Positions 1,836 through 31,557 of a DNA stretch of 64,000 nt are shown here, one piece after another. The stretch covers positions 28,296,186 through 28,360,185 of the forward strand of contig OZ034968.1 of the NCBI GenBank assembly GCA_964030785.1, written 5' to 3'. Position 1 is the first letter of the stretch. Each line of letters opens with the position of its first letter. Origin of the DNA: Siderastrea siderea. Taxonomy: Eukaryota > Cnidaria > Anthozoa > Scleractinia > Rhizangiidae. A program made the translations under genes and the position numbers. The notes under the pieces are model-generated. The model made no database searches, was not told the DNA's origin, and saw nothing but the letters and a program-made list of their open reading frames with translations.

Positions 1836-2292
1836 CTATAAGCCCGAATTCAGAACTGAAAATGAATTTCAATAACAGCCTAGTAATTATATTCGGGATG
1901 TCCACACTTGTCTATAAATGTCTAATAAATAGAAGTGACTTTGGCCAAATAACATTGAGTTTTTGGTTTAATTTAGGGATCAGAAAGGAGTCGTTTCAAA
2001 CACCAAAGTTTAGAAGCGAAAGAAACGGCCGCAAGTTAAGTTCTTTAACCGGAAAAGAGTATGCTTTCCATTGTAATTCAATCCACTTTTTCTTACCCTT
2101 TTCTGCAGTATCATCGTATTTTCTTTGATACTGTTTTCTTCTGAAGTTATCAGCTTTGACTGGATTCATCCGGGGATCTTCTTCTCCAAATGTACGTCCC
2201 CACCGGAGCCCCTGTGAGGAGGCGGGTTGTAAGCAGACAGATAGGAAAATACACGAAACGAAGAAGAAGACTATAAGACTTTTAGTTTCCAT
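1836..2292 (-). CDS. Antho-RWamide II-type neuropeptide precursor (RWamide gene 1)
   Basis: Secreted neuropeptide precursor. Residues 1-26 are a strong signal peptide ending in PASS. The next residues are QGLRW, then Gly-Arg. Signal peptidase would expose the Gln (cyclised to pGlu), cleavage at Arg and amidation at Gly would give pQGLRWamide, the sequence known as Antho-RWamide II from sea anemones. Only one peptide copy is present; the rest (TFGEEDPR..., acidic then basic) is a spacer. The coding exon is 2097-2292. An acceptor AG sits directly upstream (exon starts at 2300), and the donor GTAAGA follows 2097 in phase 1. The last exon is less sure: the best phase-matched candidate is 1836-1855, adding VLNSGL and a stop, for 71 aa in total, close to its two paralogues. 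No clear poly(A) signal was found near it. The family and the peptide exon are secure; the 3' end is a guess. The gene points away from the other two RWamide genes. Confidence 0.82.
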
Positions 2293-2309
2293 GGTTTAAC
2301 CTGCAATAA

Positions 2310-5300
2310 AGTGAGAAGATGACATAAATAGAGTCGCATCGACCTCGTATGTTTCACTAACAGGTTTCTTTGCGGTCGACATGCGTAAATCGTAAACAAT
2401 TTCGAGAGGCCGGAATGTGTTAAGCCGTCGAAATCATTGAAAGCTGACAAGGGTTTGATTGCTGCGAGTTAAACGTTTTGGTTGGAAAGGTTTGGCGTAC
2501 ATTCGATTACCGTTGAGCCAACCGTCGAGTCATCGAATGTTGTTTTAACTTTTTTATTCTGTGAGTGAAATCCGAAGACGTCAATACTTTCCTATGGTAG
2601 ATTGGTCGTTTAAGTTGTCCGCGCTTGACAAAATAACATTTCGCGTTTTTAAGGAGAATTTCTATCGAGAAACGAGCATGTTTATGTTTTCTGCCTTTTT
2701 TTGCGATCGTGCCTACACCCATTGAACCTCGCTAAGAACGATTAAAATCAACGTGGTGAAAATGTAAGCTGTTGAGAATACACTGTACTCGAAGAGATTT
2801 TCATAAAAGAATTCGGAAATATCTTTTTCTAACATGTCTACTTCACAATATGTCTCTCGAAGAACCTTTGAAAATGCGATTTAAGACTGATAGAGCTTGA
2901 TCGAAAATCCTCACAGAAACAAGGGGTTGAAATTATAGAAAACTGCCAGATATTGAGGAATTTTTTTACTGTTTGAGTTACAGCCTCAAGAACAACCTTA
3001 AATAAATTATTGAACTTAATATTGATAAAATTTGATTAAAAGTTGTGAAGAAACGACAGTACAAAACTGTAGAATACTCGGCGAGAATTATTTGTCCAAC
3101 TAACAGAAAAAGAAATCGATTTTCCTTACGGTTGATGATTTTCTTTTAGTGTTCCTTCCTCCGCTTAAAACCCGTAGACTTTTGTGTACCTTTCTTCACT
3201 GTTCAACGGCTTATAAAGCCGATACCTCCGGCGACGTGGTTCGTTTTCACAAATTAAGCAGACTAAAAGGATAAAAAGCCTCTAAATGATGGCCACGTAA
3301 TTTGGTTTAATTACTTCCGCATTAAGGATAATGAAAACACAGACCTTTTGACAGAAATAAAGGTTCAATACACGTTCTCTACCATACAAAAATTTTCACC
3401 TGTTTTCTGGAATCTTGAAATCCCACAAATCGGGGTTCGTTAGCGACTTTTAACACTAAGCCAATTATAGGTACTGAATTTATTGAAGTAGAATTTTTTC
3501 GCCGTCTTTTGCTGTTCGATTTAAGGAATTAAATTTGCTTTCATGGACATGTTAATATTGTAAATATTTGGAACTGTCACTGAACAAATTTCTCAAATAA
3601 CGTCAGCCTTTTGCCGAGGAAGTATTAGCCTTAGACTAGTGCGTCAAGTAAAAATTTGTACACACAAACATAATTACTAAATTGATTCTTTGCAAACAAC
3701 TCTAGTTTTCCTTTGTTTAAGGCTAATTCGATTCACGACTAGCCATTGTCATTTTTTTGGGGGAAATAAACTTTTGATGTTCTTTTCCAACACCGAATTC
3801 TGTCACTGGAAAGTTGATTAATCATTTTCTCTAAATTACACAGCAGGGTGAAATTAAAGATGCAACTAAAAGATGTTGTTTTTAAAGAACCATACCAGCT
3901 TTTTACCAGCTTAACAACAGCAGATGTTTAAAGCCTCTTTGGGCGTTTTATTCAATTTTCTTGGGCGATCTGCGTTCAAGAAGGAAATCGAGAAATTACA
4001 GAACCACTAATTTTTTGCCAAGTTAGAAATTAAATTCAAAAAGCATTGTTATTTATCCTTCTGTCGCATTTACTTTACTGCTATAAGCTAATGTGCCATT
4101 TAAAGAATACAGCCGAGCAGGCTTTAATTGTCTCCTTGGGTTATTAACTTCAAAAAATTATCTTCAAAAAGCTTTGTTTTTTATCAATGCCACTCTTTTC
4201 TTCAAGAACACACTAATCCATTTAGGTGGAAATTCTGGAAAATATTTTCCTGTGCCTGCAGCAACTAACACAATGGAGAAGTGATGAGAACAAAATCATA
4301 TTAGGCCATAAATACTTTGACCTTAGTTAGAGAAATATATTGAAAATAAAATTTGTGAAAAGATCCTTGAAAGAAATAATTTGCTTCTTTATGGAACAAA
4401 ATCAAGAGCAATCTTCACATATTATGGCGCTCTTTAAGATTTAATTTCAAAATGTTCATTGCCTCTTTGGTGATTAAAAGCTCTTACTTTTTGGGAGCAA
4501 TATGTAGAAAAAGATTGTAATCTCAGGGAATATTGACCGTGACTCTGAGTTCTGGTGAGTAATTGGAAGTTACTATGACAAATTATCAGCGTGCAATAGT
4601 AATGGTATTGATCTAAGCGGGCAGGAAGTAATAAGGAACAGATGAATTACATGGACGTTCTAACATCGCTGGATAGATAAACCTACACTTATAGCTGTTG
4701 ACATTTAAGGGCAGTTAAAAGATTCAGATTCTACGCTTTTATAACCAAAACTACCGAGCGTTAAACTGAGGCTTTTAAATAGTAAAATCATATGATTTTG
4801 TCATCTACCGTGTATTGCTTCTGATATTGGCTTTTGCGTCATATAGCAACTAATGGTTGACAATTACAATTGGCCCAGAATGATATTTTGAAACGGAATA
4901 CAAACAAAGAGGGGGGAAAAGGAGAAAAAAGAAGCTGTGTACATGGTCCTATACTGAGGCGGTCGCGAGACTAAAGCAGATATTACTTTCTTTTGTAGGC
5001 GCCATACCGAATACTTTAAAGCACTCCTTCAGCTTGTTGTGACACATAACTTTAAATAGTCTTCAACAGTTTTATTTGTTGTGACCAGGACAGAATAGGA
5101 CTATGGTTTATAATACAGTTAGTGATAAAAAGGCTGTGACTTCCTTTGTTTTATCGGTACGGTGCTTCCACCTTTGTCGCTGACCTAAGTTTGATTTCAA
5201 TTGCTTGTGGTTTTATCGCTTTTTTAAGGGATAACCTTCCTTGAGACAGATTTAACTAGATTTCCAAATGCCTGTGGTTTTGTCGTTTTTTCAAGGACTG

Positions 5301-6030
5301 ATATTCCCCCCAGACATCCTGACTGATTTCAAACTGGTCAGTCGTAAATCAGTCCTAAAAAGGGAAAACTGATTAATAGAACCCGTTTCAATTTGTAACC
5401 GGCTCCACTGCAAGGAAACCTGGAGTGAGCAGTTTTTGGCTAAACCTCGGAAATAAAGAATTTCAACTTGTACCGCAGAAAAGAAAAAAAAATGTGAGAG
5501 AATTCAGCAAAAAATGTCAACTATAAGAAAATAGCATAACACATTTTAATAGTATTTTGAAGGCTGGTTTTCCTATCATCACCGCAATCTGAAATGCGCA
5601 AGGTTTAAAAAATAAGAAAGTTATAAAATGAACACGACTCAAAGATATTTATATCTCTTCCCAGTTTACAACAAATTTATAAACTAAAAGAATCAATTTT
5701 GTTCTTCAAAGATTACATGAAATCTTTAGTGTGTCGGCTTTGTGGTTTCAGTTGTTTTAACCTTCGTATAATTTTAGTTCAAGAAATCTAGGGTGAAATA
5801 TTTTACATAAAATAAATTGTATCTTTCCAGTTAATAAAGAGAAATTAAATAACATTAGCAAATTCTACATTACTGGTTGAAACTCGTTTTCTTTCCGATT
5901 GAGGTTACGCCTTCATCTGCGAACAATCAGATAAAGACACAGCGACGGACAAAAATTTTAACTCATCTTTTCGTGTCGTAGGTAAAGAATAATAGGCGAA
6001 TGCCAATTCCGTGGTCAAATCTTCTTCGGT
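2310..6030. other. Non-coding, AT-rich
   Basis: Upstream region of RWamide gene 1. Apart from the tentative 5' exon near 3.15 kb, only short unsupported frames and a local near-duplicate around 5205-5290 (TGTGGTTTTATCGCTTTTTT / TGTGGTTTTGTCGTTTTTTC). Confidence 0.5.
3129..3215 (-). promoter_or_regulatory. Possible promoter and 5' UTR exon of RWamide gene 1
   Basis: On the minus strand a TATAAG box lies at 3215-3210. It is followed by untranslated sequence and a GTAAGG donor just below 3129. The acceptor at 2301-2302, directly before the gene 1 start codon, needs such an upstream exon. The match is to simple motifs only, so this is tentative. Confidence 0.2.
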
Positions 6031-6206
6031 AATTAATTGAGGGTTGTCCAATACTCCGACAAATTTATGCATGGCATTGTGTTGTATTCACTTCACATAA
6101 CAATACTGTACAAAAGCATAACAAAAAAGAATGAAGCAAAACAATAAGAAATTTAACAATGCTTTGCATAAATTTGTCGGAGTATTGGACAAGTATGAAT
6201 TAATTA
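6031..6206. repeat. Short inverted-repeat element (MITE-like)
   Basis: Arms of about 45 bp read toward each other: TCCAATACTCCGACAAATTT near 6047 and its reverse complement near 6168, with AATTAATT at both outer ends and an AT-rich loop. No coding capacity. Confidence 0.6.
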
Positions 6207-6927
6207 GTTTAAGTAAATTCTAGAGAAATCCTCTGTCCACGCCTTGTTATTTGTTATAGTCCTACGTACTGAAGGAAGCTCAGTAATACATGTAAATTCT
6301 ATTACGACAGGAAGTTTCTACTTTTATCTTGCAGCTTTATGTTATGTCGCCATGCATAAGTGATTCCTTATGTAAGGAAATACTCAGTGGAGTTAAGTAT
6401 TTTGCCTTCGGGATAAAAGTTGTCTTTTTATGATACCATCAGGCCTCTCAGAGGGAAGCATGATGTTTCCCTTTGGTTTTCACATGAATGGGTTGACGCA
6501 GATACGTGGAAAGAAGTGTTTATCGTCGAGAATTACGTTAACCAGCGATCAGGCTCTGTTTTCGTTTCGTTCGTTGAAAAATTCAGGCGGAAAAGGCGAA
6601 ACATTTGAACAGCCTAATATCTACCGAAAATTCGATGCGTCATCAAAAAGACCATCGCTCTTGCTCGCCCTCGGGTTAAACGTGGCTTAGACGACGATAA
6701 CACAATTTTTCACTGAAAGTCACGCCATTTCTTCTAAGAATGGTTTTCATTTAGTTGTGTTCTGTATTTAGTTAACATCAGTTCAAGGTATTGCTTTGTA
6801 GCAGCAGGTTTCTTATTTTTTTGAGTGCTTTTTCGCTGCCCATGCATATCCTTGTGTGAAGTCGTTAATTTCAAAAGCATTCAGTGGAGTTTCAGGAGTG
6901 CCTTAGTTGCCTAAGGTATTCCCCGAT

Positions 6928-7311
6928 TAAAGGGACTGTCACGGGGATTTTTACGTTTTTGGGTGAAAAATGGCTGAAATTTAAATCAAGTACCTTTTCT
7001 CGCACATGGGATACGTACAACGTCAAAAGAAGGGAATCGAATAATTTCCTCAAAGGAGGAACAAACCTTAATCGTGGCGATTTTTCCAAGAAACGAAGGA
7101 AAAACGTCGAAACATCAACTTAATGTTTTCAAGTTGCAATCCATTCCCATCCTTGCAATCCGTAGCCAAACACCCTTAATTATAGTCTCAGAAAACTAGT
7201 GGAGCAATTTTAAACGAAGCTGCGAACCAGTATTTTCGGGGTTTCCTCTGATTGGAATATGTCTTTTAGCTTTTCAAAGTTTTCCTAAAAATTGGTGACA
7301 GTGTTCCTTTA
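6928..7311. repeat. MITE-like element with TAAAGG...CTGTCAC ends
   Basis: Left end TAAAGGGACTGTCAC and right end GTGACAGTGTTCCTTTA are imperfect inverted repeats. A diverged relative of its inner part lies at about 20700-21010, upstream of RWamide gene 2. The overlapping open frames are not convincing genes. Confidence 0.45.
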
Positions 7312-8019
7312 ACTTTGAAGAAAATCTTAAGTTTCTTACATAACTGTTATTCTGGGTATGAAAAAAAGTCCAGGTAGGCAAGACAAATTATAGGTAGATA
7401 AGCAGCCCACACGACGGGTGCTAAACGCCGGTTTTCTGTAGCATGAAGCTACCAGGAATCTGGGCGACGGAGCAGTTCATACGTTTGAGGAAGAACATTT
7501 GGTCTCCTGGGTTTTTCTTCAAATTCAATAGTTTATCCATAAATAAACCACTCTTCATAGCATATGAGATGGCTTAGTCCGTGATAAGAAGGAATTTTCT
7601 GATTGGCTTCCTAAGTGTTCTGTATTGTGTAATACGGGCCGCTAAGAAGGATCGCTCACAAATACAATATCATCATTCGTGCTTTCACAAATATTAAAAA
7701 CAAAAAATCGTAGGGTGGGACCTTTCTCCGTTGTGTCTGACATACAAAAAAGGCAAATTTCTGCAAAGTGTCACTAAAATTTTATTCAGTGTTTGCTACT
7801 CGCATTTACCTATACTGATCGCACAGTATTTGAAGAAAAACCGATTTTCAAGTTTTTCCCCACACGTTTTATGGGTCCTATACCCATTAACTTACAATTG
7901 CAAGAAATGAACTTGACCAATACCTTGAAGATTATTAAGGGGCTTTCAAAAGCGGTTTTTTTTTCTTTTGCAGTGATTTTATATAATTAAGTACGATTTC
8001 CAATCACTTGTGGATACTA

Positions 8020-8200
8020 ACGACGATATTCGATATTCGTTGCGATCTTACGGCGATATGATTGCAGCGGCAGACTGCGACAGCTCCGGCGTAGGAAAAT
8101 TGCGATCAAATTACCTTGAAATCGCTTCGAATATCACCGGCTGTTTTACTCAGGCGATTTGAATTCGCTCTTAAAATCGCTGAAAAATCGCCTACGTAAA
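8020..8200. repeat. Fragment of a 'GCGATCGCTGA'-rich repeat
   Basis: Many GCGAT/ATCGC words in a short stretch, as in the elements at 13360-14010 and 27125-27332. Probably a decayed copy of the same family. Confidence 0.35.
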
Positions 8201-8884
8201 CTACCTTAACGTTACTGTATTATGCGCAATTTTTGTTAGTGTTTTTTTCTTAACAGGATTAAGCACCGAACTACTTAGTTCAAAGGATTTTTCGGTTTTC
8301 GCTAATTTTAACGGCATTTTTTACTTTTTGTTAACAAGTGATTGATCATTGAGTATTAAGTTAAGAATTTGAATGACATCACTGAATTCCTTTGATTTAG
8401 ATGTCGCTAAAAATAAGCGGTAACCTTGAGGTAATTGCAGCCCTAATACTGCGGACCTGTCATGTGCGGGCCCCGTTTCGTGGTCATGTTCGACGAAAGG
8501 CAGTATTGCAATGGTTGTAAGTTTACTTGCACTGGAGATATTGTATAAATTTTAGTGTTCGAAGCACTGATTGACGCATTTTATTAGTTTTCAACTGAAG
8601 AGCAATTCATTTTTACAAATTCAATTGGTGGGGTGCTTGGAGGCCCAAACTATCGAAGAAAAAGAACAAACCAACAATCAAAGACACGAAGCATTACCCG
8701 GCCTTCCATTAGACTTAATGCACACTTTTGTTCGATGTTACATGATATATCACACCAATATGTGTGGTTGACGCGTAAAGGAAAAGGCGTAAGTGATACT
8801 TATACGGGAAAAATATCTACTGAAAGAAGCAGGTCTCTTTTAACAAGTTGAAATCCTGACACTGACAATCTTAGACAAGTCGAC

Positions 8885-9620
8885 GGGTTCTTTATTCAAA
8901 GTTCTTGGTTCTATTTATTGTATGAAACTGATTCAGAGTCATGAATGTGGTCTTAGCTCTAAAGTAGTCTCTATTGTTTATTTTTTCTAATATCTTGTGA
9001 ATGAAAAGCGTCGCTGTTCACAAGTTATAATCTTTGTACCATCTTGAAACGAGAAGATCGGGGTATCATTGACAGCTCTTTGTTGTTTAAAATGTCTATG
9101 AACTCATGTTCCCATTCTTAGCTCTAAGCTATTCTCTATCATACAAGTTTCTCTGACTTTCATTCTCTGAATGAAAAAGCGTCGCCGTTTTCAAGTTGTG
9201 AACTCTACGATGAAACATTAGGCTTGCCACAACAAGGATACGTACAAATTTCTATGTTGTTTAAAACTGATTCGCGGGCATGAATAGAGTCATCTTCCCA
9301 CTTTTAGATTTGACCTGTTCACTAAGATATAATTTCCTTTTCAACATTCTCAATGAAAGACGTCACTTTTTCATAAGTTGTAATCTACGATCTTCAGAAA
9401 ACATGACGGGGGCTCCGTTTAAAGCTCTTGATGAAAAACTGATAAAAAAAAAATAACGCAGGCGTGTATACTGACAGGTCACTAAGCTACTGCCTTTACT
9501 TTTTTTTTCTCTAACATCCCCTGAATGAAAACGGTCATTGTTTCAAATGCCATTTTTGCACGATATTTAGTCGACACAGCATGGACTCCTTAATTCAGGC
9601 ATAGCTCTCTATTGTGTCAG
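8885..9620. repeat. Four diverged tandem copies of a unit of about 175 bp
   Basis: The phrase TGAATGAAAA-GCGTC followed by CAAGTTGTAATCTACGAT recurs near 8999, 9169, 9352 and 9523, spaced about 170-183 bp. Other parts of the unit (GTTGTTTAAAACTGATTC, CTTAGCTCTAA) recur in the same order. No open frame runs through the copies. Confidence 0.55.
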
Positions 9621-9624
9621 AAAT

Positions 9625-12221
9625 ATTATTAATGAGCTTACCGCCGGGCTTTAGACGGCGATGCTAAATCCACGGTTCTCTATTGTCAGTATATTCCAGC
9701 TGGCAGGTCGATAAAGGTAGTTTTGTTGAGTCTCTAGTGTTTTTACAATAATTCAGAAAGTTAAAACAACATGAGTTCATTAGCGATATCCTGGCGATAC
9801 AATAAACTTTTTATCTTAAGCCTGTAATGTACCCCTGGAGCTATATGAAAATACACCGTATGTGAAGTCGTCAAAATATTATTTCACTCCATGAAAAAGG
9901 AAAATCCTTTGATGGTCACAATATAGAATTTCTGTTACAGACAAAACAATTAGAACCATTCTGTTGAGCCCAATAAAGAGCACCACAACAAAGTATATTG
10001 TAAAGGAAATTTTAACTGAAGTGAATGGATACACTTAAGGAAATCATTTACAGCCATACAACTTTGCACTAACAAACCAGGAAAGTGCTGCTTCAGAGTA
10101 GTATATTAAGTATCTTTGATTTGAGTGATCACGCTGTGGGATTTGCAGCAGAAGTAAATGATATAACCACTTTACCCAACTAAAGGTTAGACTAAAAGAG
10201 GAAAAGGCGAATCAGTATCCATCTTTCCCAAGCAGTTATACCTCTTCACTTGTGAAAGAAAACAGCTATCATGATAACCTCTAAGAAAAAACTTTATAGA
10301 TTTGTCATGCCATTTGTGTTGTTGCCTACGGATATTCTTTAGCCAATTGCCAAATACGAGCAATGATTGCATTCTAGCTACACTTAGCAAAGAAAGAGTA
10401 TATGTCAGCATCGTTGTTCCGAGTTCGAGTCGACGCATCTAGAGTAAGTTAAAGTTGAGTTCAAGTAAAGTTCTAGAACGAGGGCAAGCGGTGACCCTAT
10501 ATATATATAGCTATCTGCATCTGAAAGTTAACCGTTGAAAAATCATGCCTAACCTAAAATACGGAACTGCTAAATGCTAAAAAAAAAACTGAAAAAATCA
10601 GTAGTTATTTTCTCCTAACTCTAACCCCAGCTTAAGCAGTTAAGTGAAATCGAACTCAACTCGAAAGTATGAATTCCTTGGTACGTGGCTGATTGTGTGG
10701 CTGTACATACTGCTGCAACCTTTCCTTCTCGAGAGGTTAATGCAAAATAATGATAAAGAGCAAAATTAAGTGATTTATTGCATGTAGCTTTGATTAAGTC
10801 AGTCTTGGAGTTCTGCGAGAAGTTATAGCTGCATCGGGTAAGGTAGGCCCTTTAAAATACCCTGAACTTGACCCGAGCCTTAGTTTTGACAAAATAAATT
10901 ACACAGTTTTCAACATGTAACGTTTCTGGCAGTGTTTGTTTGCTTCAAGTAAATTCTCGAAAAAGGAGGTCGAATGAATAATGAAAATCAAAATGTTCGT
11001 TTATGAAAAAGGTCTTTTTTGAGATACCGTTCTATTTCTCAATTATTCATCATTACAATTGCGGTAATTGGTCAAATCTGATTTATTATAAGTTTGTTTG
11101 GCGTCGTTGTTGTAATCTTTTGATTTGCCTCAGAGGTATCTTGTTCCAAGGAAGGAAGTGAAATATTGTGCCAACCAACGCATAATTATGTTTTTTTAAA
11201 TATACGTCTTTTTATTAGCTGATTTTCAGTTGATTTTTGTTGTTGTTATTTTTAACTGGCTTAAATCTTATTTCGTTTCTCAGTATATGCCGGTAATGAG
11301 ACCACCAACAGGGACCATTTGGTCAACAATTCAGATTTATTATTGCTTTCAGATTACGGTATATCGAGCCCGTCCTTTAAATTTGACGCTTGCCATGCCA
11401 AGAGTCTAACATTCTATATGCAGGAAAATAAGAAAGCCTTTTTCCAAGCATACTTTACATATTGCCTTTTTGTCTGTTTTCTCTTCAGAATTAGACAACA
11501 TTATTTCTAGCGTTTTTTTTTCTGTTGGCTGAAGTTAGTTTGGCTTTTCAGTTCCGGATTTTAAGCGACGTTAAGGGAACCAAAACACCAGGAGCCTTCC
11601 TTCTAGTACAAAGGACCTTAAGTGTTGATAACCAATCTCCCGTTTGATCTTTATAAATATATGGATTTTTTCTGGTAGATAGAAATTGCCGGTTCCTTTG
11701 GAGGCGTTATATGCAAACATAATGCCTGCAGTAATCAGCTGGCCAAATAATTTCCTATATAAATGAATGAAGAAAACCAAATCCTCCACCTATTTGTAAT
11801 ACACTCGGACAAGAGGGTAGTATCACCACACAGTCTTGGCAGCAGAAAAACAAATTGAATTTGAGGCTGCGATAGAGACAAGTGTTTAAGGTATTTAATA
11901 CGTATACTGTTCGTGATATGGATTTCAGGGTTGCTATTTTTAAATTATCATTTTTACTTTCGATATATTTGCTGACAAAATCTTTTTTTATACATTGATT
12001 GTTATGAAATATTTGACACAAAGGTACTCCTCTTTGGTGTTGTAACTATTTTGGTGTGATTGTGAAAGCCAAGGCCATACAAACGCCGGGCAATAACTGT
12101 TTCATACAAACTGGCATGAAATCGGACCAAGGCTCCAAATATCCTGTAGAATATACCAACCATATTGAGTGACAAACGTAATAATTAAAAACAATTTTCC
12201 TCATAACTGATCGAGGTAAAC
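9625..12221. other. Non-coding, no feature recognised
   Basis: Unique-looking AT-rich sequence with only short open frames on both strands. Confidence 0.5.
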
Positions 12222-14872: not shown

Positions 14873-14926
<54 letters not shown>

Positions 14927-14937
14927 TTGTTGTTGTT
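14873..14937. repeat. Hexanucleotide microsatellite (CGTTGT)n
   Basis: About nine copies of CGTTGT/GTTGTC then (GTT)n. It produces poly-Thr and poly-Gln/Arg frames on the minus strand that are artefacts. Confidence 0.9.
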
Positions 14938-15847: not shown

Positions 15848-15876
15848 AAATAAAATAAAATAAAATAAAATAAAAC
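15848..15876. repeat. (AAAAT)n microsatellite
   Basis: Five to six perfect AAAAT units. Confidence 0.85.
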
Positions 15877-18245: not shown

Positions 18246-18259
18246 TATGTTTTATCTAG

Positions 18260-21200
18260 AATATTTACATTACGACGCCTCTTGGTGTCAGTAATAAAAA
18301 TATTTTTGAAAAGTGTGCTTCAGCGTCGATATCGTCCGATTAGAGAAATACTTCACCTTATCCACCTCTTCTATCATATTTATTTAATCTTAACAGCAAG
18401 CATTTCCAAGGGAATTCAGTGAATCATATATAATTTACCTAATTTTTACGTGAAAATCATGGCGAAATAGCTGAACTGCGTCGAAACAAATTTTTAAACC
18501 GGCTTCTGCTATCGTCGAAAGGTTATGGTGATTGTTTGAAAGTATTACCATATATCAAAAGATCAAAGTGCCGTCATCAAACTAAACACTTTGAAAATTT
18601 TTCTTTGCCTCGGGGGAAATTACTTAAAACTGAATTGAAATCTTATTACAATTCCATTAACGAAACTGACTTTATGTCACAATATTTTTTTATTAGCACG
18701 CATCCAGAAACAAAAGAAAAAAATAGGGAGAACATGAGAGATGTTCATAAGGAAACCAGAACATCCACATTGATATTTTTTTTCTTTCATTTTTGCCTTG
18801 CGATTTGCAGTTTTCTAGTTCCGAACTTCGAAGACGTCAGTTTGTAATCCTTTGAAATACGAGAAAATTAGTAACAACTAATTGTTTGTTCGTCTAAAAT
18901 ATCACAAAAACCTTCTCAATCAACGGTTCAGACGCGTTGCTGAAAACGGCGACTAATCCCTAAAAAGTCATCCGGTGAGACATGACACAAATAAATTTCA
19001 AATCCAACCTTCACTTGAGTGCAACAATGCCGTCAGGTGATAAAGACTTTTGGAATTATTCTAGCTTCCATTACGGAACAATAGTATGCTATTTAGATGT
19101 GAATCGCCATGTGTTGTGCGGAAACATTTTACGAGACCGCCAATTACGATCATAGCTTCCGAAGTGAGGAGGGTTTTTGTTCGTTGATAATAAAATTATC
19201 TCGAAGCGTGGTTCTTAAACCGAAAGGTGTAATACCTACGCTGCAAATTAGTTTACCGAAAGCAAATATATACGATGAGGCATTCAGCTTCCTCAGTTGC
19301 CTCGGGGATTCTACAATTTTCGCTTCAGCCTTTCTTCTGATCTAAGGTAAGTCGGTTTCTTTTATTTGAAATACTTCCACAACAGCTCCGGGAGGTTTTT
19401 GTCACCGGTTTTTTTCATGATCAAAATACTTTTAAAAATACAGCTATAAATTTTGGATTAGGTTTTCTTTTTTACTTGACCGCTTTTAAAGCCGACCAAC
19501 AGTGTCATTGTTTTTTTCGGTTCGTCATTTCACAGAAAGTTACGGTAACTGGGTGAGCTTGAATCGTTTCACCGGTTAATGATTACAGACAGTTTGTCTT
19601 TTTTCATTTCTCGGTCCGCTGTCCATAACAGTTTTCTTCCTTTTTCAATTGAATTGCAAATAAATATTGGTCTTGTGGTTTCAATACAAACATTTTACTT
19701 TGGTGGAAGATTCAACCTATTTGATGAGTTTTCACGATGGCAAACTCCAATGAAGAAATGACCTTAACGAGAACACATGTAAAAAAAGAGAGAGAGAGAA
19801 ATCTAAACAGTATAGAAATGTTTTATTTTCGCACATTTATTTCAGGGCGATACTGTTTTAAATTATTTGGCTCAAGTGCCCTCTCATACTGTTTTTCTCA
19901 GAGCTGTTGACAGTTTAAGTTCTTTTCTTCTAAACGCTTACCACTCAAACTGGTATGTAGTATGTGTTAGGACCGTCCCTAAAAGATAACACATTGCTGT
20001 TTTTTATAAATTATACGTTTGCTGTGATGTTACAACAAAAACCGTTGGCCTATGCAAGGTGTTTAGGGGTGTCGCAAGGTGTATTAAGAGATGTTTCGTG
20101 TTTTGAATTTAAATGTGGGTTAAAATTAAAAACAAAACTCTGCGGTGAAGATAAATGGATAAATGATTTTGGGGGGATGTCATGTGGCATGCGTTGCGGA
20201 ACGTGAACTCCTGAAATATCAAAAATCAAAGCGAACAATAATATCTTGCCTGAAAAATACCATCGCCGTTTTGTGATTATGGGCGAATGACCATGACAAA
20301 CGAATCAGAACTGGCGAATCTTGTCTCAAAAACCTGAGCCTGTAACAGCAGTGAAATTGGCTGAATTGGCTGTAAACAAGGTGGTTCCTAATAAAGAATG
20401 GAGCGTTCACTTCACACACCGTTGAAGACTGAAATGCTATTTTAGATGTCTTTCCACCATGACATGTTGTTGAATCTAAGCTCCTCCAAACAACTACAGC
20501 TATGAAAATTTCCAAACCAACACCCGAGAAAAATAAGATTTAAGTCTAAAATTTTTTTTAGGATATTTCTTACAAATCTTAGGCAAATTTCATTTCTTCA
20601 GCAATGGTCGTAGAATGGGCAAATGTTGTTTGTCAGTTGTTTATGTTTCAAATGGGTTACATTAGTTTCTACGTTTTTGAGTTAAACCTGTACTGAAGTC
20701 GAAACAAAGCACGTTTTCTCGTACTCAAAATGTTCGTAGACCACCAAAAGGAAGATTCACTGAGTGATCTTCTCAAAGGGAGAACAAATCATAACATGTT
20801 TTCGGTAATTTTTTTGACGATCCGAGTGAAGAAAAAAGATGGGCAATTTTTTTAAAGTTGCAATCAACTTCTATCCTGGCCATGCGCAGAAAAAGCATTT
20901 CATTTATAGATTTGGAAAACTAGTACTGACAGTAATTCTAAACACAATTATTCCTTTGATTTTAATATGTCATTCAGCTTTTTAAAGTAATTTTAAAAGC
21001 GAGAGACATGTAGCACTTTGAATAGTAGTTTATTGACAACTGAAATAGGAATGCCACGCTTCCTTTCTACGCCGGGAACTTTTTCTCTGCTTCTTGCCGT
21101 ACCAAAACGTCTTTAGACCTGAATTATGCTAAAAGTGGATCTTCTAAAAACCGATGTAAACCGCAACCTAATCATTTTGGTGAAGGTAGATAAATGTCAA

Positions 21201-21400
21201 TAAGGTAATAATGAATTTTAAAATCGAATGGCTGAAATTAGAGTTAACTTCAAAATAATTTTACATTTAAAATCATGACGATGCTATTGCCATTATACGT
21301 TTGATGTTTCATCGACTTTTTACTTTCACTGTACAAAATAATATTCAAGGAATTTACAGCATTTTTAAAGAAGTTATTGTTGCACTTTTAACTGATTTTT
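18260..21400. other. Non-coding upstream region of RWamide gene 2
   Basis: Contains the tentative first exon near 19.3 kb and a diverged repeat at about 20700-21010 related to 6980-7300. No domain recognised in the frames at 18536, 19109 or 19964. Confidence 0.45.
19267..19346 (+). promoter_or_regulatory. Possible promoter and 5' UTR exon of RWamide gene 2
   Basis: A TATATA box at 19267-19272 is followed about 75 bp later by a consensus donor, AAG|GTAAGT, after 19346. This could be the untranslated first exon that splices to the acceptor just before 21428, giving an intron of about 2.1 kb. Transcript data would decide. Confidence 0.25.
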
Positions 21401-21427
21401 TTCATATCTTTCATCACACTTCTGCAG

Positions 21428-22225
21428 ATGGTTAACAAGACACAACTCGCTTTCCTACTCGTGACATGCGCAGTAATAGCGCTGTTAATCCAGCCAGCTG
21501 TCAGTCAACAGGATATTCTTCGATGGGGCAAACGAGACAGCGATCTGTCGGACGAGCACGAACCGGAAAGTCTAAAGACTCGGCGGAGACAATATAATAA
21601 CGAGGAGGATTACTACAGTAAGCTAAGCCTTCGTCACTTCCGCTTTCCCATATTGTTTTCCCTCTTCTTCCCAAGAGTACCACGTAGAGCAGACAGAGAA
21701 AATTCTCCAAAATTATTGTTTCATAGAAAAGTACGGGGCTGTTCAATCGTTTTCATTTGAAATAATACACTTTGGCCCGACCAAAAGGATTCAACGTTTT
21801 CATTCAACTCCATCGAACATTGTTGAATTCTGCAAGTTTGACGCGTTTGAGCACCCTGTTGAATAACGTTAAATGATTCTAAAGGATAAAAATGTTGTGG
21901 AAAGGACTGGTGTTACACAACGTTCAGTTTGTTGGACCAAGGTCTTACAATTAAATCGACACCAAAGTCAGCCAGGGCAACCCATGTGTCATCAAATTCT
22001 CGAAATTTGTAGATCGCCTAATCGTGAAAAAAAAAATCTTCTTTGACAAGATAGTTGAGGTTATCCGATACTACTGGAAACATTAATTTAGTTACAAGAC
22101 AATACGTGTAGTTACTGTAGAGAAATGTATAAAGAACTCCTTTACTGTAGGAAGGCTAATTTGTACTATTTTTTCTTGCAGGACAAGAAAGAAAGAGAGA
22201 ACTTCCTGACTTTTTCCGACTTTAA
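21428..22225 (+). CDS. RWamide-type neuropeptide precursor, QQDILRWamide (RWamide gene 2)
   Basis: Secreted precursor of 77 aa encoded by two coding exons, 21428-21617 and 22182-22225. The ATG follows directly after an acceptor (pyrimidine-rich, ends CTGCAG), so an untranslated first exon lies upstream. Residues 1-26 are a signal peptide ending in PAVS. QQDILRW is residues 27-33, followed by Gly-Lys-Arg, a full amidation and dibasic cleavage site. The product should be (p)QQDILRWamide, or pQDILRWamide if signal peptidase cuts one residue later. A spacer rich in Asp/Glu and an RRR stretch follow. The intron is phase 1 (donor GTAAGC, acceptor TTGCAG) and the last exon encodes RQERKRELPDFFRL and a stop. 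A canonical AATAAA lies 86 bp after the stop. The peptide family is known from anthozoans; I do not recall this exact peptide being described. Confidence 0.88.
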
Positions 22226-22310
22226 TTAATCAACGAAGGCAGATATTTTAACTCAGAAAAATTATATTTATGTGCTAGAGTGAAAAGTGCAATTTGATTT
22301 ATAATACAGA

Positions 22311-22316
22311 AATAAA
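22311..22316 (+). terminator. Polyadenylation signal of RWamide gene 2
   Basis: AATAAA lies 86 bp after the stop codon of the second coding exon, a normal 3' UTR distance. It supports the placement of the last exon. Confidence 0.6.
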
Positions 22317-22319
22317 TTG

Positions 22320-24098
22320 CTCGCTGTGATTGTCAGTGATGACCTTAGTGGTGACAGTTGCTTTTGTAAAATTAACCGTTAAAAAGAACAGACCCCTGAC
22401 AGTAAATCGTCCCACACGCGAAAACCGCGTATACTGAAATTCATGAAATCCATATTTTCAGAAAAATCCCTAAAGCAAATCTCCTATGGCAAGCGAGAAA
22501 CGATGACGGTTATCTTGGACTGTTGTTTTGGTTTGAAAAAAGCTGGATGACTGAGAAAGAGACTGGAGACAAACGTTTTCGTTTGCATTTTGAAGGTTTC
22601 TCCTTTTTTCCTTTTGTCCAGTATCTGTTTTACTTAGCCGCACCAATCTATTTTATGGCATGTGGCATAATTATGCAAATGTAATATCTGCGCAATGACT
22701 CAAAGAAATAAATTAATCTGAAATGCATGGCGTTTTCCGCGCTAGTTTACAAGAGCAGCCGCTTTTGTGATGTCTGTTGCGATAAAATTAAAGCAATTAG
22801 AAGCTTACTAACTATTTCCTGTCTCAAGTGTCGAGTTTAATTAAGGCTATCATTAAAAAAACTAGGGGGAAAATCCAAAATGCCAGACATATGTTTCTGA
22901 CAAGGACTTCTTAAGAAGCAGCGTTCCAAGTGTCACGTTTGAACGATGAATACCCTCCTCTCTAAAGAAGCGAAGTTACTAAAAAAAAATAGATAAATAA
23001 ATAAATAAATAAATAAATAAAAAGAGCTTTGCCAAAGATTTTGCAAATAGATTAAAGCCCCCGTGAAACATCTGGGCGTGATAGACATGATAGCCAAGCC
23101 CTGCAATCGGGGATTGGAATGAGAACTCTCGCGGGAAATTATAAGATATATACAATTTCAGACCGTAAGTGATATGTACAGGTTTAAGAGTACAGGTCTT
23201 TGTTACTTATCTCCGGGCTGGTAGAAAAAGGAGTTCGAGTCGATTGAAGTCTTTAAACAGCTAGGGTTGGCTTTTACGAGTGACGGTCCAAAGAGCAATA
23301 ATGGGTGTGTCAACTAGTTATTCATTTTATTGGATCAGTATTGAGTTCTAAATATACCCATAAGACTTTGCGGTAGCTGATGTAAAAATTACCGAGTGTT
23401 AGAAAATTTGTGAGTTGCTGTAAACTTTAAGGCCGTTTAAAGATCATTCTTTGATGGCGAAAACTGCATGTGACCCGGTGATTTAGGCACGTCACCTACC
23501 CATGTGTTGAATAGTTCAGTATTGTTAAGATCAAGTCTGGTGACGTTTACTTTGTTTGCCACTTATAAAACTGGCATTAAGATTTGGACGCATGCTGCGA
23601 AAGGAGGCCTAAATACTTTCTCCCTGTGAAACGGTTTTCTCATGCACATAAAACATCTTCTTCCCATGAGATGAAGCGAGAAATTGTACTTTCTTTCAAC
23701 AACTGTTTTCCTAACTGGTCGAAGACATATGAGGGTGCTTTCATTTACTGACTATAAAACTTGGAAAATAGAAATATAATACAGGCTCACCACTCGCAAT
23801 GCTCAATTTTCCCTTTTTCTTACAATATGGGCTCTCAGTAAAGGAAGAACTATTTATGACGTGATCTCTAAGGCCCTAATAACAGAACCCAAAACGTTTT
23901 TCATTACCAAATTGTATCTCACCAATGGAAATCTTTAGATTTATTAAATTCAGTGTACAGTTTCACAGCTGGTGACGTGCTGACGCCAGTAAAGCTTGCA
24001 AGCAGCTCATGCCTACCGCATTCATTCCTCTTTTTTATCTAGGGAAGGGCAAGTGAGCTCTCAAATAAGTAAATAGCCGCGATATTACTACATTTGAG
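22320..24098. other. Non-coding, no gene recognised
   Basis: AT-rich intergenic sequence with one (AAAT)n array. Confidence 0.5.
22985..23021. repeat. (AAAT)n microsatellite
   Basis: About eight AAAT/ATAA units. Confidence 0.85.
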
Positions 24099-24906
24099 CT
24101 TTTATACTGAAGGCGAACGTTTATTGACTGTTCTACATCGCCCAAGTCAGCTTTATTTTTGCTACTGCATTAACCAGTCGAATAAAAAGTAAAGATACCA
24201 CTTTTTACTTCACAATTTTTTTTGACGACAATAACAACAAAAGCAACTTAATGAAAACGTTCTTTTACTGATTTTGATCTTTGCTGGATCAATTTTGGTG
24301 GTTTTTAGAGGTTTTGGAGAAAATCAAGATATCAAAGATGACGGAACCAATATGGCCACCGTTTGAGAACATGACGTAATTTTTGCGCCATATTACGTCA
24401 TAAGATCATGATACGGACCTCAAAGGAAACATTTTTGAGCGCAGTATCTACCCTAAAGTTTGGATGCCACAGTTTCAATATTCTCCGTCTTCGATGTTCC
24501 CGGTCTGAATAGGGTTAAAACAAAACTTCTTTCTGTTGTTTTAAGACTTCTTATTCTCATAAATTGCTTGCCTTGCGCGACGTGGCCTCGATTTACTTAG
24601 TTACTTGAAATTCAGTAGATTCCAAATATAATGGGAATCGCAGCACATTGAACCTTGCTGCCCATACAAACACATCTGCAAACCAAATATTGATTAAGAT
24701 TTTTCGTTCCAAAAAAATACTAAGACGTAATTTGGAACAAAAAAATGAAGATAACAAGAACCTTTATCGACTGCGATATTAATACGATTGGGCCTTTTAT
24801 ACTGAAGGGGTACGCTTATTGACTGTTCTACATTGCCCAAGTCAGCTTCATGATCATTTTTGCCACTGCATTTACCAGTCGAATAAAAAGTTAAGATACC
24901 ACTTTT
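24099..24906. repeat. Direct repeat pair of about 110 bp
   Basis: 24099-24206 and 24793-24906 share CTTTTATACTGAAGG, TTATTGACTGTTCTACAT and CAGTCGAATAAAAAGT in order and the same orientation, about 690 bp apart. Confidence 0.55.
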
Positions 24907-25375
24907 TTTTGGCGAAAAGTAAAAGCTATGGCGAGATGCAGCAACCAAATTAATATGTTTAAACTTCGTTTAAGTTCGTGCTCACTGAATAGAGAAGTGC
25001 AATCAATGTGTCGTTTGGAACAACTCCCGATATCGATGGAAACAACACACTCACTGCATCTACTCAACCAAGAACGGCTAGATGTACATCAAGTGCGTCT
25101 AGTTCAAATAGCGCAACCCTCTCTAATTTTTCCTTGGAACTTGGAAAAACAGCTTTTCGCTTTTGATATCCATCCAATAAAGTTATTCACCTCAGAATCG
25201 ACTACCGATAAATTGTAGTTAACTGTTGCCGTTTCAACCTTATCCAGACTGGGCGGGGGGAGGGGGACAGTGCAGAATCCGCCCGCACAGACTTTGGAAG
25301 CTTATAACTTTTGCACGCTAAAGCTAACATTTACGTTAAAGCCACCAGACTTGGTGATTTTTCCCGAAATTCATC

Positions 25376-26392
25376 CACAGGTAGCGAAAGCCTCAGTTAT
25401 GACTGAAAATCAATAAAATTCTGTGGAATTAACAGTGCTTCTTTGGTTATATCTTACTTACTTGCTATCTGGGGCAAAGGTTCGCTCTCCGAACGAGAAT
25501 TAGTGTGTTTCTAATGAGTATTTAATAATAATTACGAAAGGTGATTCACAATTCACCCGTACCATGCATACCTCTGTTCATTAAATGAGCTATATTTCTT
25601 ACTATACGCCAATTCCACTCACAATTTCCTCAAACCGGAATAAATCGACAGTGAAGAAACAATTATACTCCGGAAAAGTTCCATCTTTCCTTACGTTTGT
25701 CGCCATAAAACGGCAATATTTTGAGCTTCTTGCTCAAGAAATCAAATGTCGGCATTCGACCGCCGACCTCTGCGCACAAACATATGCAAATATGCTAAAT
25801 AAATCGCTGTTCTCGTCTCATTGGGTAATTCGCACAATAACGCGAACATGACAAAATCTACTGTTTTGGGTTGTGACGTTTCATGTTTGAGGCGTGGCTA
25901 TTTGCGCTTGCTTACCGTGCACGGCTCCCCGACACAGTTGATTTTGGCTTGTCCGATTTATTTAGCATATTTGCATATATTTGTGCGCAGAGGTCGGCAG
26001 TCGAATACTAACATTTCATTTCTTGTGCAAGAAGCTCAAAATATTGCGGTTTTATGGTGACAAACGATGGGAAAAATTGAACTTTTCCCGAGTATAGTTG
26101 TTTCTTCACTATGGATTTGTTCTGGTTTGAGGAAACTGTGAGTGGAAATGGCGAATATCAAGAAATATACGTCATTTAATGAACAGAGGTATGCTCGGTG
26201 CGGGTGAATTGTGTATCACCTTTCATAATTATAAAACTCAATGGGAGGATAAATTAGAAAGACACTTATTCTCGCTCGGAGAGCGAACTTTTGCCCCAGA
26301 TAGCAAGTAAGTAAGATATAAACAAAGAAATACCGTTAATTTTACATAATTTTATTGATTTTCAGTCATAACTAAAGCTTTGGCTACCTGTG
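25376..26392. repeat. Long foldback (palindromic) element, arms about 430 bp
   Basis: Left arm 25376-25806 and right arm 25953-26392 are inverted copies over their whole length, around a loop of about 146 bp. Examples: TTGCTATCTGGGGCAAAGGT / CCCCAGATAGCAAG, and the inner pair ATGCAAATATGCTAAATAAA (25784) with its complement (25953-25975). Open frames in the arms mirror one another and are not coding. A transcript across it would form a long hairpin. Confidence 0.8.
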
Positions 26393-29060
26393 ATTCACCT
26401 GGGAACAATTTGGTATAGAAAGTCCTTGTCTATCAAATTGGATGTTACCATGGCATCCACGTTTTTCCAGGAAGTTTTATGCAGATTTGTAGATTTTTCT
26501 CTTTTTTTAATTCTTTAATGCTCTCTTACGGTAACTTTTACACTTTCAGATCATTTTCTTTTATTTATTTTCATTAGTTTGGTCAGTCAGCTTCGGTGCT
26601 TTTGGGAGGTTTTTCAAAAAATCAAGAAATCCAAGATGGCCGATCCAAGACTGCCGACGTCGCATGGCGTAATTTTTATGCCATGTGAAGTCGTCAGCCC
26701 AAGTTGCGGGCTCCCTATTTTCCCTGGGGGCCATGGGAAGGGGTGCACCCAAGATGGCCGCCATTTGGAAACCACGCCATAAATCCACGTCACTTGACGT
26801 CATCGCCTCATTTTGGATTTACTATGTACCCTCGAAGTTTCGTTGTCATAGCGTTTAATCTTTTCGATAACATAGCTGGACTGTCTTCTCGAGAAACAGT
26901 CGTCGTGTTGGTTAAGAATTTAGCGATGGGATAAGAAGCATGTAGTTCAAAACTGTTTTGAGGAATACGGGTCCATAGTAACCATTTCATTTATTCTGAA
27001 AAATGTCGTTAAAAGAAAGGGCGGGCATAAAGGCTTCTAAAATAATTGACATGAGTTCAAAGATTGATTTGTGCAGTTTTGTTGTTGTTGTTGTTGTTGT
27101 TACTTAAGTTTAAATCATTATAATGCTGGTTTGCATATGGACGCTACCATCACTGCACGAATCGCTGTAAAAAATGTTCAGCAATCGTTGTGATCATAGG
27201 GAAAGCACACTTCAGCAAGCGTAGCGATCACAGCACTTCAAAACGATCGCTGAAGAGTGGTTTCCATATGATCGCAAAGATTGCTGAACGTTTTTTTTTT
27301 CCAGCGATCCTAGCAATCTTATGAAAACCAGCCGTTAGTTTTTTTTAGATTTCAGATGAGATTATGTTGCATCTAAAGAAGGGTATGCGCTGTATTTAAT
27401 ATAGTGGGTGACAACAGTACATAGCACCCAGTCTCTTTACTTTGCGTTTGTATTTCGTCATGCTTCTTTATCTGTGTTATCACTCAAAAGTCATAGAAAT
27501 ATAAAATAAATTCAGAAAAAGAGACTGTTTTACGTTATCTTTTAGTGGATAAACGATGCCACTTTTTCCATCTCTGAATTATCGTCTGTATTTACCAACT
27601 GAAAGTGTTTTTCTTAGAAATGTCTTAATATTGGACTGAACGTTAGCATCATCATCATTACTAGCTTGTTTTTTTTATTATTTGGGACTATCCAAAAGAG
27701 CAACAAACGCTACCCGATAAACAGATCTGTTCTTTTTGAGTTGGTCAGCGAATACTTCTCGTGTCCGTGTCTTTGATAATTCTTAGTGGCAAAACGGTGG
27801 CGCTTTTGTAAATAGTTTTTCTATATTTTTGAACAACGCATATAAAATAGAATTTTAAAAATGCTGCACAAAAAAAAATTTCCAAAGATCGTATTTCAAA
27901 AAAGTAAAAGTGAAGATGCACAGAGGGTACCCGTCGTCCATCCTCAAGTATCTCGAAACCGCAACCACATTTTTCGTAATGTTTTGTTGGCTAACAGATG
28001 CCGTTCATTCTAATTATATGTTCAAAACGACAACAATGTCCAAAATATTGTTTGCTTTTAAAAGAGACTCGGTGTTTAATTAACAGCATTCTCTGTACCA
28101 AAACGGGCATAAATCTAGATGACGGAAATTATATTGACTAGCACATTAGCGAGAACAAACTTACAAGACAAGAGTTCTTCCGTGCTATTGAAATGTCGAT
28201 TATTGTTAACACTGTTTACCGAGTCCTTTATGGCCTCTACAGGAGAAGTGTCGGTGGAACTTAAAGAAGAAGTATTCACATTACAAATGATTAATTAAAA
28301 CCTGGTTCGCTATTCAAGGGTCCGAGGAAACAAAAGGTAAGATCCGCATGGAATGAAATTTAATTAGAAATGACCGTGGATAAAGGATAGCGTCCCACAT
28401 GAAAAGGTATAGATTTTTGTAAGGAGCTGTCTATGCCCACACGCTTTATCAGCCTCGAACGTGGGCCGTTTTATCGCCTTGACATTTCCGAATAAACATT
28501 ATTGTAGAATTCGATGTTTTTTCGATGGGAAACAAAACAGAAAAAAGTCATTCGCGATATTAATATTTGCATTAACTATTGACAAAAATGTAAGCTTGAG
28601 TGTTATGTTTTGAAAATAATCGCTGCTTGATTTAAAGATGACATACAAGCTTCTCTACCATTTTTGTTTAAAGATTTGCCATATTAATGGTGCAAAAACA
28701 CCTCACTAGTAGAAGATAAACGATCAGCTGTGTTCATCACCGGTGAAAGGGACAATTTAATAACCGAAATTACCGCAATTATTAAAGTTACTGCTCACAG
28801 CTAATTAAGACGCCGACCACAGAAGGATTTTAAAGCATTGGGTTTTAGATAAAAGAAGCATCGAAAGGACAACAACTTGACAAGACTAAGCAGGAACCAA
28901 CATCGCTAGAAACCCAGCATTAGTCAAGAGAGAAGTTATCGACCGTCAGGTATGTTTGAAATTGTTGAATTTTCGTATAAAATAAACTGAAGAAATGACT
29001 GACATTAAATCTAAGGAGGCCATTAACGGCTGGTTTACGCCACTTTGACGCCCCCCTTCA
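26393..29060. other. Non-coding between foldback element and RWamide gene 3
   Basis: A GC-richer patch at 26630-26800 (ATGGCC words, CACGTCACTTGACGTCATCG) gives open frames on both strands, typical of a repeat. One MITE at 27125. Otherwise nothing seen. Confidence 0.45.
27125..27332. repeat. MITE-like element with GCTGGTTT ends
   Basis: Left end GCTGGTTTGCATATGG and right end CTTATGAAAACCAGC are imperfect inverted repeats. The inside is rich in AGCGATC / GATCGCTGA words, like the fragments at 8.1, 13.4 and 13.9 kb. Confidence 0.5.
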
Positions 29061-29068
29061 AGTTAAAC

Positions 29069-29176
29069 TATAAAACGCGTTGCTAGACCATTGTTGGTTT
29101 CAAAAGTCACTGGAAGAAGCTAATAGCTAATATTTTTACTGCTACGCACTTCGTAAAAGGATTTTGAATCTTTCAG
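29069..29176 (+). promoter_or_regulatory. Probable promoter and 5' UTR exon of RWamide gene 3
   Basis: TATAAAA at 29069-29075 precedes about 75 bp of non-coding sequence that ends in a perfect donor, CAG|GTAAGT, after 29176. Splicing to the acceptor at 30395 would place this exon 1.2 kb upstream of the coding exon. It matches the layout predicted for the other two RWamide genes. Confidence 0.35.
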
Positions 29177-30400
29177 GTAAGTAAACTGAATTTTCGCTCT
29201 TTGTGGCTTTACGATGCTAGCGTAGCGAGGCCTGATATTTTTGTATACTACAAATCAAACTTTTTTTTTCGAAATTATCAACTTCACTATTTTTGTGGAG
29301 AGCGGTTGGAATGACAAGGAGTAAAGCTGTTTCAATGATTACTAAAACATGAAAAAATATTTAAACTGAAACCGAAAACACGAAGCTAAGAAGAAAAGTG
29401 TTAAAGCGACCATCAAAAACATTAATCTCTAAAAAAACGTTCTTTGAGAATTTTTCTTTTCTGTCTTTACGTCAGTGTCCATATCTGTATGAAAAGGCAA
29501 AATAACAATGATGTCAAATCACATAACAAAGGACTTAAAAACAACGCTTAGGGCAAAGTACTGAAATAATCCGCAAGGATATCGAATTTTAACACATGCA
29601 TGTAGTACATGCCACCTTTGATAGCATCCGTTCATAACATTTGTTTACTTTCGTTTTGAGTTTTGAAGTTTCCTCTCTAAAATTGTGTGCGTTTATTGAG
29701 AGTGCCATTATTGCATTCACACACTTAGCGAAAGGAATACAACAAAAACATTTTCTGTGTTAAGTAAGTGCTCAACGAATTTAAAGTTTCTTTTACTGTG
29801 CCGGGTCCACTTTTAAGTCAGTTCCGTTTTTTCCTTTCGTAGCCTAAATAAATGACCACCACTTTTTTAGAAATGTAGTTATATCAACGTTATTTCAGCA
29901 ACAGCCTGTTACACACACAAAAAATAATAAATAAAGTAAAACAGCCTGTTACACAAGATGATCGTTAAGCCAATTATTACACGTTGTAAATTTCAATTTA
30001 AGATATTACTGCATTGTATTGCTTTCAGAGAAATAAGGACAGCAGAAGGGTGAGCTCTAAAAAAAGATATTAAAAATATTCTGAATAAATCTCTCAATGT
30101 CTCCTTTGAACTAGGACGGGTGTCACTTAAGAACCCTATAAAATAGCTAGCGTCAATTGTAACGTAAGACCTGAAGCGCTATCGCAAACGGTCGTGTGTA
30201 TCACTCTGATGAAGATGGACTGTACCCCCCCCCCCCCCTGGGAATGAGGGTAGGGCGGACAAATGCCACCAAAAAGTTAGTATAAGAAATAAAATAAATT
30301 ACATAATCCTTATAAAAGTATTAATTTGTCCAACTGATCGCAATGCCGGTTGTAAACTGCCCATTACTCACTAAAATTGTTTCTTTACCTTTCAGAGAAC

Positions 30401-31557
30401 ATGATGTCATCCAACAAGTTAGTTTCATTGCTAGTTCTCTCTTGCTTTGTTCTCTCTATGTATTCCCAATGTGTAAAGGGCCAACTTCCCGGCATTCGTT
30501 GGGGAAGAAGTTATCCAAATGATGACGTCACCGAAGAATACAAGGGGAAACTTTGGGGTTTAATGAAAAAGCGATTCAGTCAGCATCAACTAAACAGTAA
30601 GTTTTAAAAATGCTCTTTTAATGACCAACATTATGAGTTTTCTGTAGGGTTGAAACATATAAAATATGAAAAATCAGTAAACTTATATAATTAAGACCAC
30701 ACAAGTAATCAGTATGGATGAGTTACACGTTTCTGCGATCTTCTCCAACTGGAATTGCGTATTATTACATTTGTTAGAATGGATGAACCAAGCAGAAGTC
30801 GAAGAAAACACGTCTGTTTAGCCGGCGACGTTCCTGGGAAGACGACTAGTCACGAAGGGTTTTTATTTAATTTTCACCTACTTCTACAGCAGTTCTCAAC
30901 TGTTTGTCACGACAAAACGCCTGCGAGCCCGTCAAAATTGGTTTAAAATTTTGGATTTACTGATAAAACCAAAACAAACACAAATTACTTAATAAGAAAC
31001 TCAATCAATACCCGCTCTTATTGACTAAGAAAGTGACTCTAGTTTTTAGAAAAGCAAAACCAAAGCATACGTTAGTAGGCCATTTTCCTGACGATGGTGT
31101 ACTTCTAACACTTGCCGGAATTTGTTTTGTCCTGCATTTTGTTTTTCCTTTCTTCTAGACAGTACGCGCCCCACGTCCCCCGCCGCCACGTTGGTGCACC
31201 GTTAACCCTTTAACAAAAGGTTCCTGTTTCGCTTCTTCGTTATGGTACAACGGTGATAACGAAACCACCATAACCACCATGTCATTATAATCTCTCGGGA
31301 TTGGTTGTATATGCACCATTAAATTTTGTAATCCCAGGGACGTTTAGATAGCAATATCGCTAAATGCATGAGAAAACAAATAAGAATTAAAGATGTTGGT
31401 ATTAAACTGACGCTAGCGTGAAAAATGGCCTAATGCTTTCGACATTCGACTGAAAACCACCCAATACCAAAAAGGTTCTGACAGATTTACACTGGATGGT
31501 TTACTAATAGCTTTTATAATGTCCGCAGGTAAAGCTCAAGATTGGGAATCACCATAG
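30401..31557 (+). CDS. RWamide-type neuropeptide precursor, QLPGIRWamide (RWamide gene 3)
   Basis: Secreted precursor of about 74 aa. The first coding exon is 30401-30596, with acceptor TTTCAG at 30395 five bases upstream of the ATG. Two ATGs are adjacent; starting at the second (30404) gives a signal peptide of exactly 26 residues, as in the two paralogues. QLPGIRW-Gly-Arg follows the signal sequence directly, predicting pQLPGIRWamide. The remainder has no second amidation site. The donor GTAAGT leaves phase 1. The last exon is probably 31529-31557 (SKAQDWESP and stop), followed by AATAAATAAA near 31856. A second in-phase acceptor at about 31160 would give a different short C-terminus, so the last few residues are unsure. 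The peptide sits outside the known Antho-RWamide I and II sequences but has the same C-terminal RWamide and N-terminal Gln. Confidence 0.85.

Follow-up and report, generated by a model that had tools for sequence, protein, structure and literature searches.

A probable cluster of three paralogous Antho-RWamide preprohormone genes in the coral Siderastrea siderea

Antho-RWamides belong to neuropeptide family #10 of Koch & Grimmelikhuijzen (2020), in which a single peptide copy directly follows the signal sequence and several genes occur per species, and the main text of that study proposed the possession of many genes as a possible alternative to many copies per precursor (PMC7523074). Among its members are QGLRWamide, which is Antho-RWamide-2 and was isolated from a sea anemone, QLPGIRWamide of the corallimorpharians Discosoma sp. 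and Ricordea yuma, and pQLLGIRWamide or pQGLPGIRWamide, given for some stony corals (PMC7523074). A 2022 review put the numbers at one to four genes per species and 39 peptides (PMC9545775). Work cited in PMC7523074 found RWamide immunoreactivity in sensory-motor neurons and contraction of the Calliactis sphincter by these peptides. In Nematostella, Thiel et al. (2024) reported that three LRWamides cross-activate four GPCRs, three of which have a preferred peptide, and that the receptors are found in neuroglandular, mucous gland, endomesodermal and pharyngeal ectoderm cells; non-amidated peptides encoded beside LRWamide1 were detected there by mass spectrometry (PMC11087051). LRWamide-1 has also been mentioned in a putatively neural population (PMC10946136). 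The statement in the first-pass annotation of the present locus that Antho-RWamides act on muscle agrees with the Calliactis work (PMC7523074), but muscle need not be the only target, given the Nematostella receptors in gland and ectoderm cells (PMC11087051).

Here, we analysed a 64-kb stretch of Siderastrea siderea DNA (hereafter, the window) that very probably harbours three clustered, paralogous preprohormone genes of the Antho-RWamide type (LRWamide, family #10), whose products would be processed to RWamides acting on GPCRs. As in family #10, where most peptides start with Gln and end in an amidated RW, each precursor encodes one such peptide after the signal sequence, and two of the peptides predicted in the window, QGLRWamide and QLPGIRWamide, are identical to ones listed for that family (PMC7523074). 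The Nematostella set (LRWa1-3) is similar in comprising three LRWamides, each on its own single-copy precursor, with LRWa1 being pQGLRWamide, whereas its other two peptides, pQGGLRWamide and GPPQGLRWamide, differ from those of the window (PMC11087051). Placozoan PRWamide preprohormones share the Arg-Trp-amide end and the pyroglutamate start with our predicted peptides; unlike the precursors described here, they contain many copies located far from the signal sequence, and the review argues that they are not orthologous (PMC9545775).

With respect to genome arrangement, the main text of PMC7523074 contains no occurrence of scaffold, chromosome, cluster, intron, exon, locus or synteny and uses 'tandem' only for mass spectrometry, and in the main text of PMC11087051 scaffold, synten and intron are absent, with chromosome and tandem appearing once each in other senses. 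DILRW does not occur in the main texts of PMC7523074, PMC11087051 and PMC9545775, and no description of a physical RWamide gene cluster was found in the papers searched on hexacoral RWamides. Two things appear to be new: that three members are physically linked, and the peptide QQDILRWamide. The peptide family and the one-peptide-per-gene design are already known. Likewise, the proposal of the first-pass annotation that different RWamides are made through gene duplication, not through repeats within one precursor, is correct but had already been put forward (PMC7523074).

Searching all six frames of the window for [RK]WG[KR] yielded four matches, three of them in ATG-started precursor frames. 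These are QGLRWGR at 2194–2214 on the minus strand (gene 1, ATG at 2292), QQDILRWGKR at 21506–21535 on the plus strand (gene 2, ATG at 21428) and QLPGIRWGR at 30482–30508 on the plus strand (gene 3, ATG at 30401), for which the predicted mature peptides, pQGLRWamide, pQQDILRWamide and pQLPGIRWamide, have calculated [M+H]+ values of 641.352, 940.500 and 851.489, respectively. In each precursor, Met and a hydrophobic stretch are followed without a gap by the Gln-started peptide; judged from the position of the mature Gln (residue 27, 27 and 28 in genes 1, 2 and 3, preceded by acceptable −3/−1 residues), the predicted signal peptides are 26, 26 and 27 residues long. There is one [RK]WG[KR] per precursor, the cleavage site being Gly-Arg in genes 1 and 3 and Gly-Lys-Arg in gene 2, and all three peptides carry the family #10 ending (LRW, IRW or MRW, then Gly and a basic residue). 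The combination of an ATG, a hydrophobic stretch, acceptable −3/−1 residues and Q...[RK]WG[KR] was found in these three genes (four hits, gene 3 having two adjacent ATGs) and in none of 60 random sequences generated with a first-order Markov model of the window. When the motif was widened to Q...G[KR], the window still yielded these three genes only, and 30 random sequences gave a mean of 0.47 and a maximum of 3 matches. The first-pass description of three small precursors within 30 kb, each with a signal peptide of about 26 residues and a single Gln-started peptide ending in Arg-Trp-Gly-(Lys)Arg, is thus borne out.

The fourth match, KWGR at 39044 on the minus strand, was rejected, as its Met and hydrophobic stretch are accompanied by no Gln-started peptide. 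We found no convincing fourth copy of the gene when four profiles were run with hmmsearch against the 2,220 six-frame window segments of at least 20 residues, the best E values outside the three genes being 0.57 for the joint profile and 0.21, 1.4 and 0.071 for the gene 1, gene 2 and gene 3 profiles, respectively. A looser motif ending in G[KR][KR], applied without a random control, picked up an additional weak 31-residue frame at 52308 (minus strand). Pfam holds no model for the three precursors and returned nothing in 10 chosen ORFs located between 6.4 and 26.8 kb.

Judged from their sequences, the three genes appear to be ordinary, well-formed members of a known family, and their function would follow by homology. 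Each gene would be transcribed separately, with a non-coding first exon, a main coding exon and a short last coding exon. Signal peptidase would expose the Gln, which would cyclise to pyroglutamate, and cleavage at the basic residue or residues after Gly, together with amidation from Gly, would release the three mature peptides named above. Neuromuscular, gland and neuronal targets may respond to them through RWamide GPCRs, with receptor preferences that overlap but are unequal. In cnidarians, many copies commonly reside in one precursor; such a cluster would be a concrete example of another design.

The main coding exon (exon 2) is built alike in the three genes. Its coding part occupies 2097–2292 (minus strand) in gene 1, 21428–21617 (plus strand) in gene 2 and 30401–30596 (plus strand) in gene 3, and comprises the ATG, the signal peptide, the peptide with its basic site, a tail (acidic/basic in gene 1) and a phase-1 GTAAG donor, which lies 63–65 full codons past the ATG in all three. 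The upstream intron ends with an acceptor that directly adjoins the ATG in gene 2; in gene 1 the acceptor precedes the ATG by 8 bases and in gene 3 by 5. A phase-0 GTAAA inside the signal peptide of gene 3 was considered and not used as a donor. Upstream of each gene, a TATA-like box and a donor would delimit a short, putative non-coding exon 1: 3130–3215 (minus strand) for gene 1, with the box at 3215 and a GTAAGG donor that a stricter pattern missed; 19267–19346 (plus strand) for gene 2, with the box at 19267 and a GTAAGT donor at 19347; and 29069–29176 (plus strand) for gene 3, with the box at 29069, a GTAAGT donor at 29177 and a second donor at 29764. Genes 2 and 3 have further TATA-like sites upstream.

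The position of the last coding exon is well supported for gene 1. One of the 12 listed acceptors, that before 980, yields ...TAEK-EFDFHRR*; exon 3, at 958–980 (minus strand), then encodes FDFHRR and a stop, and the codon of its first residue, E, is divided by the intron. An annotated protein of Oculina patagonica, P0006, has the ending ...SAEKDFDFHRR (C-terminus DFDFHRR), and FDFHRR occurs a single time in the six frames of the window. Because of this match to an annotated protein, an alternative exon 3 at 1855–1836 (VLNSGL) was rejected, and the 1836 boundary of the first-pass annotation, which had the cluster extend over 1836–31557, is wrong; its other end holds as one candidate for the end of gene 3. 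For gene 2, the predicted last coding exon lies at 22182–22225 (plus strand; RQERKRELPDFFRL, stop), and of the five acceptors listed only 22182 precedes the AATAAA at 22311. Gene 3 has two putative last coding exons, both on the plus strand: alternative A at 31159–31205 (NSTRPTSPAATLVHR, stop), which has a strong polypyrimidine acceptor (16 of 17 pyrimidines), and alternative B at 31529–31557 (SKAQDWESP, stop), the candidate proposed in the first-pass annotation, the acceptor of which is below the tract threshold. The coding parts accordingly span about 958–31557 (or 31205).

Common descent is the best reading of the likeness among the three genes, because profile matches connect them and the intron has the same phase and position in each. 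A profile built from gene 1 and 12 relatives, including neither gene 2 nor gene 3, ranked gene 3 (E 2.8e-6) and gene 2 (E 1.2e-5) next after gene 1 among the 2,220 window segments, with the following match at 0.21; together with the phase-1 intron common to all, this upholds the paralogy that the first-pass annotation had claimed. In the same segments, the gene 2 profile matched gene 1 at E 5.9e-7 and gene 3 at 0.001. The gene 3 profile matched gene 1 at E 1.2e-5; for gene 2 it gave just 0.73, a poorer value than the 0.071 and 0.56 of unrelated segments. The hhalign probabilities are 96.6% for genes 1 and 2 and 96.2% for genes 1 and 3, but only 40.7% for genes 2 and 3, and exon-2 identity amounts to 17/55, 16/60 and 10/56 positions for these pairs, respectively. 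The kinship of genes 2 and 3 would thus be indirect, each of them resembling gene 1, with a weak direct likeness between the two. At the DNA level, the sole blastn match among the three gene regions is 18 bases long and links genes 2 and 3 (E 0.40); since DNA similarity is all but gone, a recent duplication was rejected and the duplications look old. The ATGs of genes 1 and 2 are 19,136 bases apart and those of genes 2 and 3 are 8,973 bases apart, gene 1 being directed away from the other two.

A protein search that finds only relatives with exact 5-residue words in common returned 13 proteins for gene 1 (one of which, P0001, is the window's own, leaving 12 others), five for gene 2 and one for gene 3; a named relative, of gene 1, is LOC144644426 of Oculina patagonica (P0006). 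Exon 2 of gene 2 encodes the same protein as P0014 while the read-through into the intron differs, which suggests that P0014 comes from another assembly of the same or a near species. The first residue beyond the exon is K or E, as expected from translation of GTAAG or GTGAG, in all 11 gene-1 relatives besides the spliced P0006, K in four and M in one of the five gene-2 relatives, and K in the single gene-3 relative, P0019. A viral and a genome contig set, each scanned once and only with queries from gene 1, contained 26 and 30 pattern matches, respectively, none of which proved to be a relative by tblastn.

Mean pairwise identity in the signal peptide, the peptide with its basic site and the tail is 0.82, 0.98 and 0.62 in class 1 (gene 1 and its 12 relatives) and 0.81, 0.84 and 0.48 in class 2 (gene 2 and its five relatives); for class 3, the single pair of gene 3 and P0019 gives 0.67, 1.00 and 0.77, the peptide of P0019, QGKLPGIRW, being two residues longer than that of gene 3. 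LSVCLQPASSQGLRWGR is invariant in the 10 class 1 members, out of 13, that were aligned; among the three unaligned ones, P0003 also has LSVCLQPASSQGLRWGR, Q is replaced by R in P0009 and L is replaced by I in P0013. A Montipora capitata peptide published as pQPVASQKHGLRWamide (PMC7523074, family #10) resembles a class 2 precursor, and because class 1 and 2 precursors have QPASS or QPAVS before the mature Gln, its signal peptide may have been taken five residues too short, in which case the mature form would be pQKHGLRWamide.

In the tree built from 21 exon-2 proteins, a branch with 100/100 support sets class 2 apart from the rest, and the same is true of class 3. Class 1 was not recovered as a single group in this tree (7% of 200 bootstrap trees), and its member P0008 was placed beside class 2 with support of 91/63. 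P0007 (class 1) and P0019 (class 3) lie on contigs that are both 908,579 long, the sole such coincidence among the 19 entries; this is a hint that relatives of genes 1 and 3 may be linked in a second genome. That the cluster is an old, conserved hexacoral array of three genes, in which each position is kept for a distinct RWamide (GLRW; LRW after an acidic/amide residue and one more; LPGIRW) and in which ligands and receptors diversified together, is a tentative proposal that we hold to be nearly, though not quite, an even prospect. Short neuropeptides offer too little sequence for orthology to be assigned, a gap that linkage, intron phase and the flanks of the precursor can fill. Should the cluster prove conserved, a one-to-one correspondence of coral and anemone RWamide genes could be established and every peptide assigned to its receptor.

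A rival reading is that only gene 1, the classical Antho-RWamide-2 gene, works as a neuropeptide gene and that genes 2 and 3 are decaying or repurposed duplicates; in its favour one could point to their fewer relatives in the exact-word search (five and one, as compared with 12 others for gene 1) and to their ill-defined last exons. However, the signal peptide, the Gln start and the Gly-basic site are all intact in genes 2 and 3, the recurrence of the gene 2 exon-2 protein in P0014 is accompanied by LRWGKR in five of five relatives, and the gene 3 peptide is the one published for two corallimorpharians (PMC7523074), which together make this scenario highly improbable. We regard as a shade less credible still the notion that the window encodes secreted amidated peptides of another use, such as venom or antimicrobial components, that merely resemble RWamides. 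Small secreted amidated peptides are indeed known from venoms too. Nevertheless, peptide 1 is identical to a neuropeptide isolated from a sea anemone, and RWamides are associated with sensory-motor neurons by immunoreactivity and with sphincter contraction (PMC7523074), while the LRWamides of Nematostella activate four GPCRs (PMC11087051). Three neuropeptide precursor genes of the RWamide family remain our preferred reading of the cluster.

Several further features were seen elsewhere in the window. An exon-like ORF at 60327–60746 (plus strand) matches the immunoglobulin V-set (E 5.5e-6, 27 bits, just over the Pfam cut-off of 26). Three ORFs have, by eye, the look of pieces of receptor ectodomains: 48197–48499 (minus strand), with a weak, sub-cut-off match to fibronectin III (E 0.014); 49564–49989 (minus strand), with no Pfam match; and 61854–62351 (plus strand), with an implausible match below the cut-off (E 0.015). 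Broken frames at 55993–58500 (minus strand) resemble a mobile element; within them, 55993–56451 gave a GIY-YIG match below the Pfam cut-off (E 0.0051) and 56455–56832 and 58240–58500 gave none. Penelope-like elements carry a GIY-YIG-type domain. A simple repeat at 42780–43270 (minus strand) produces Ser-Val-Ser-Gln-type repeats in several frames.
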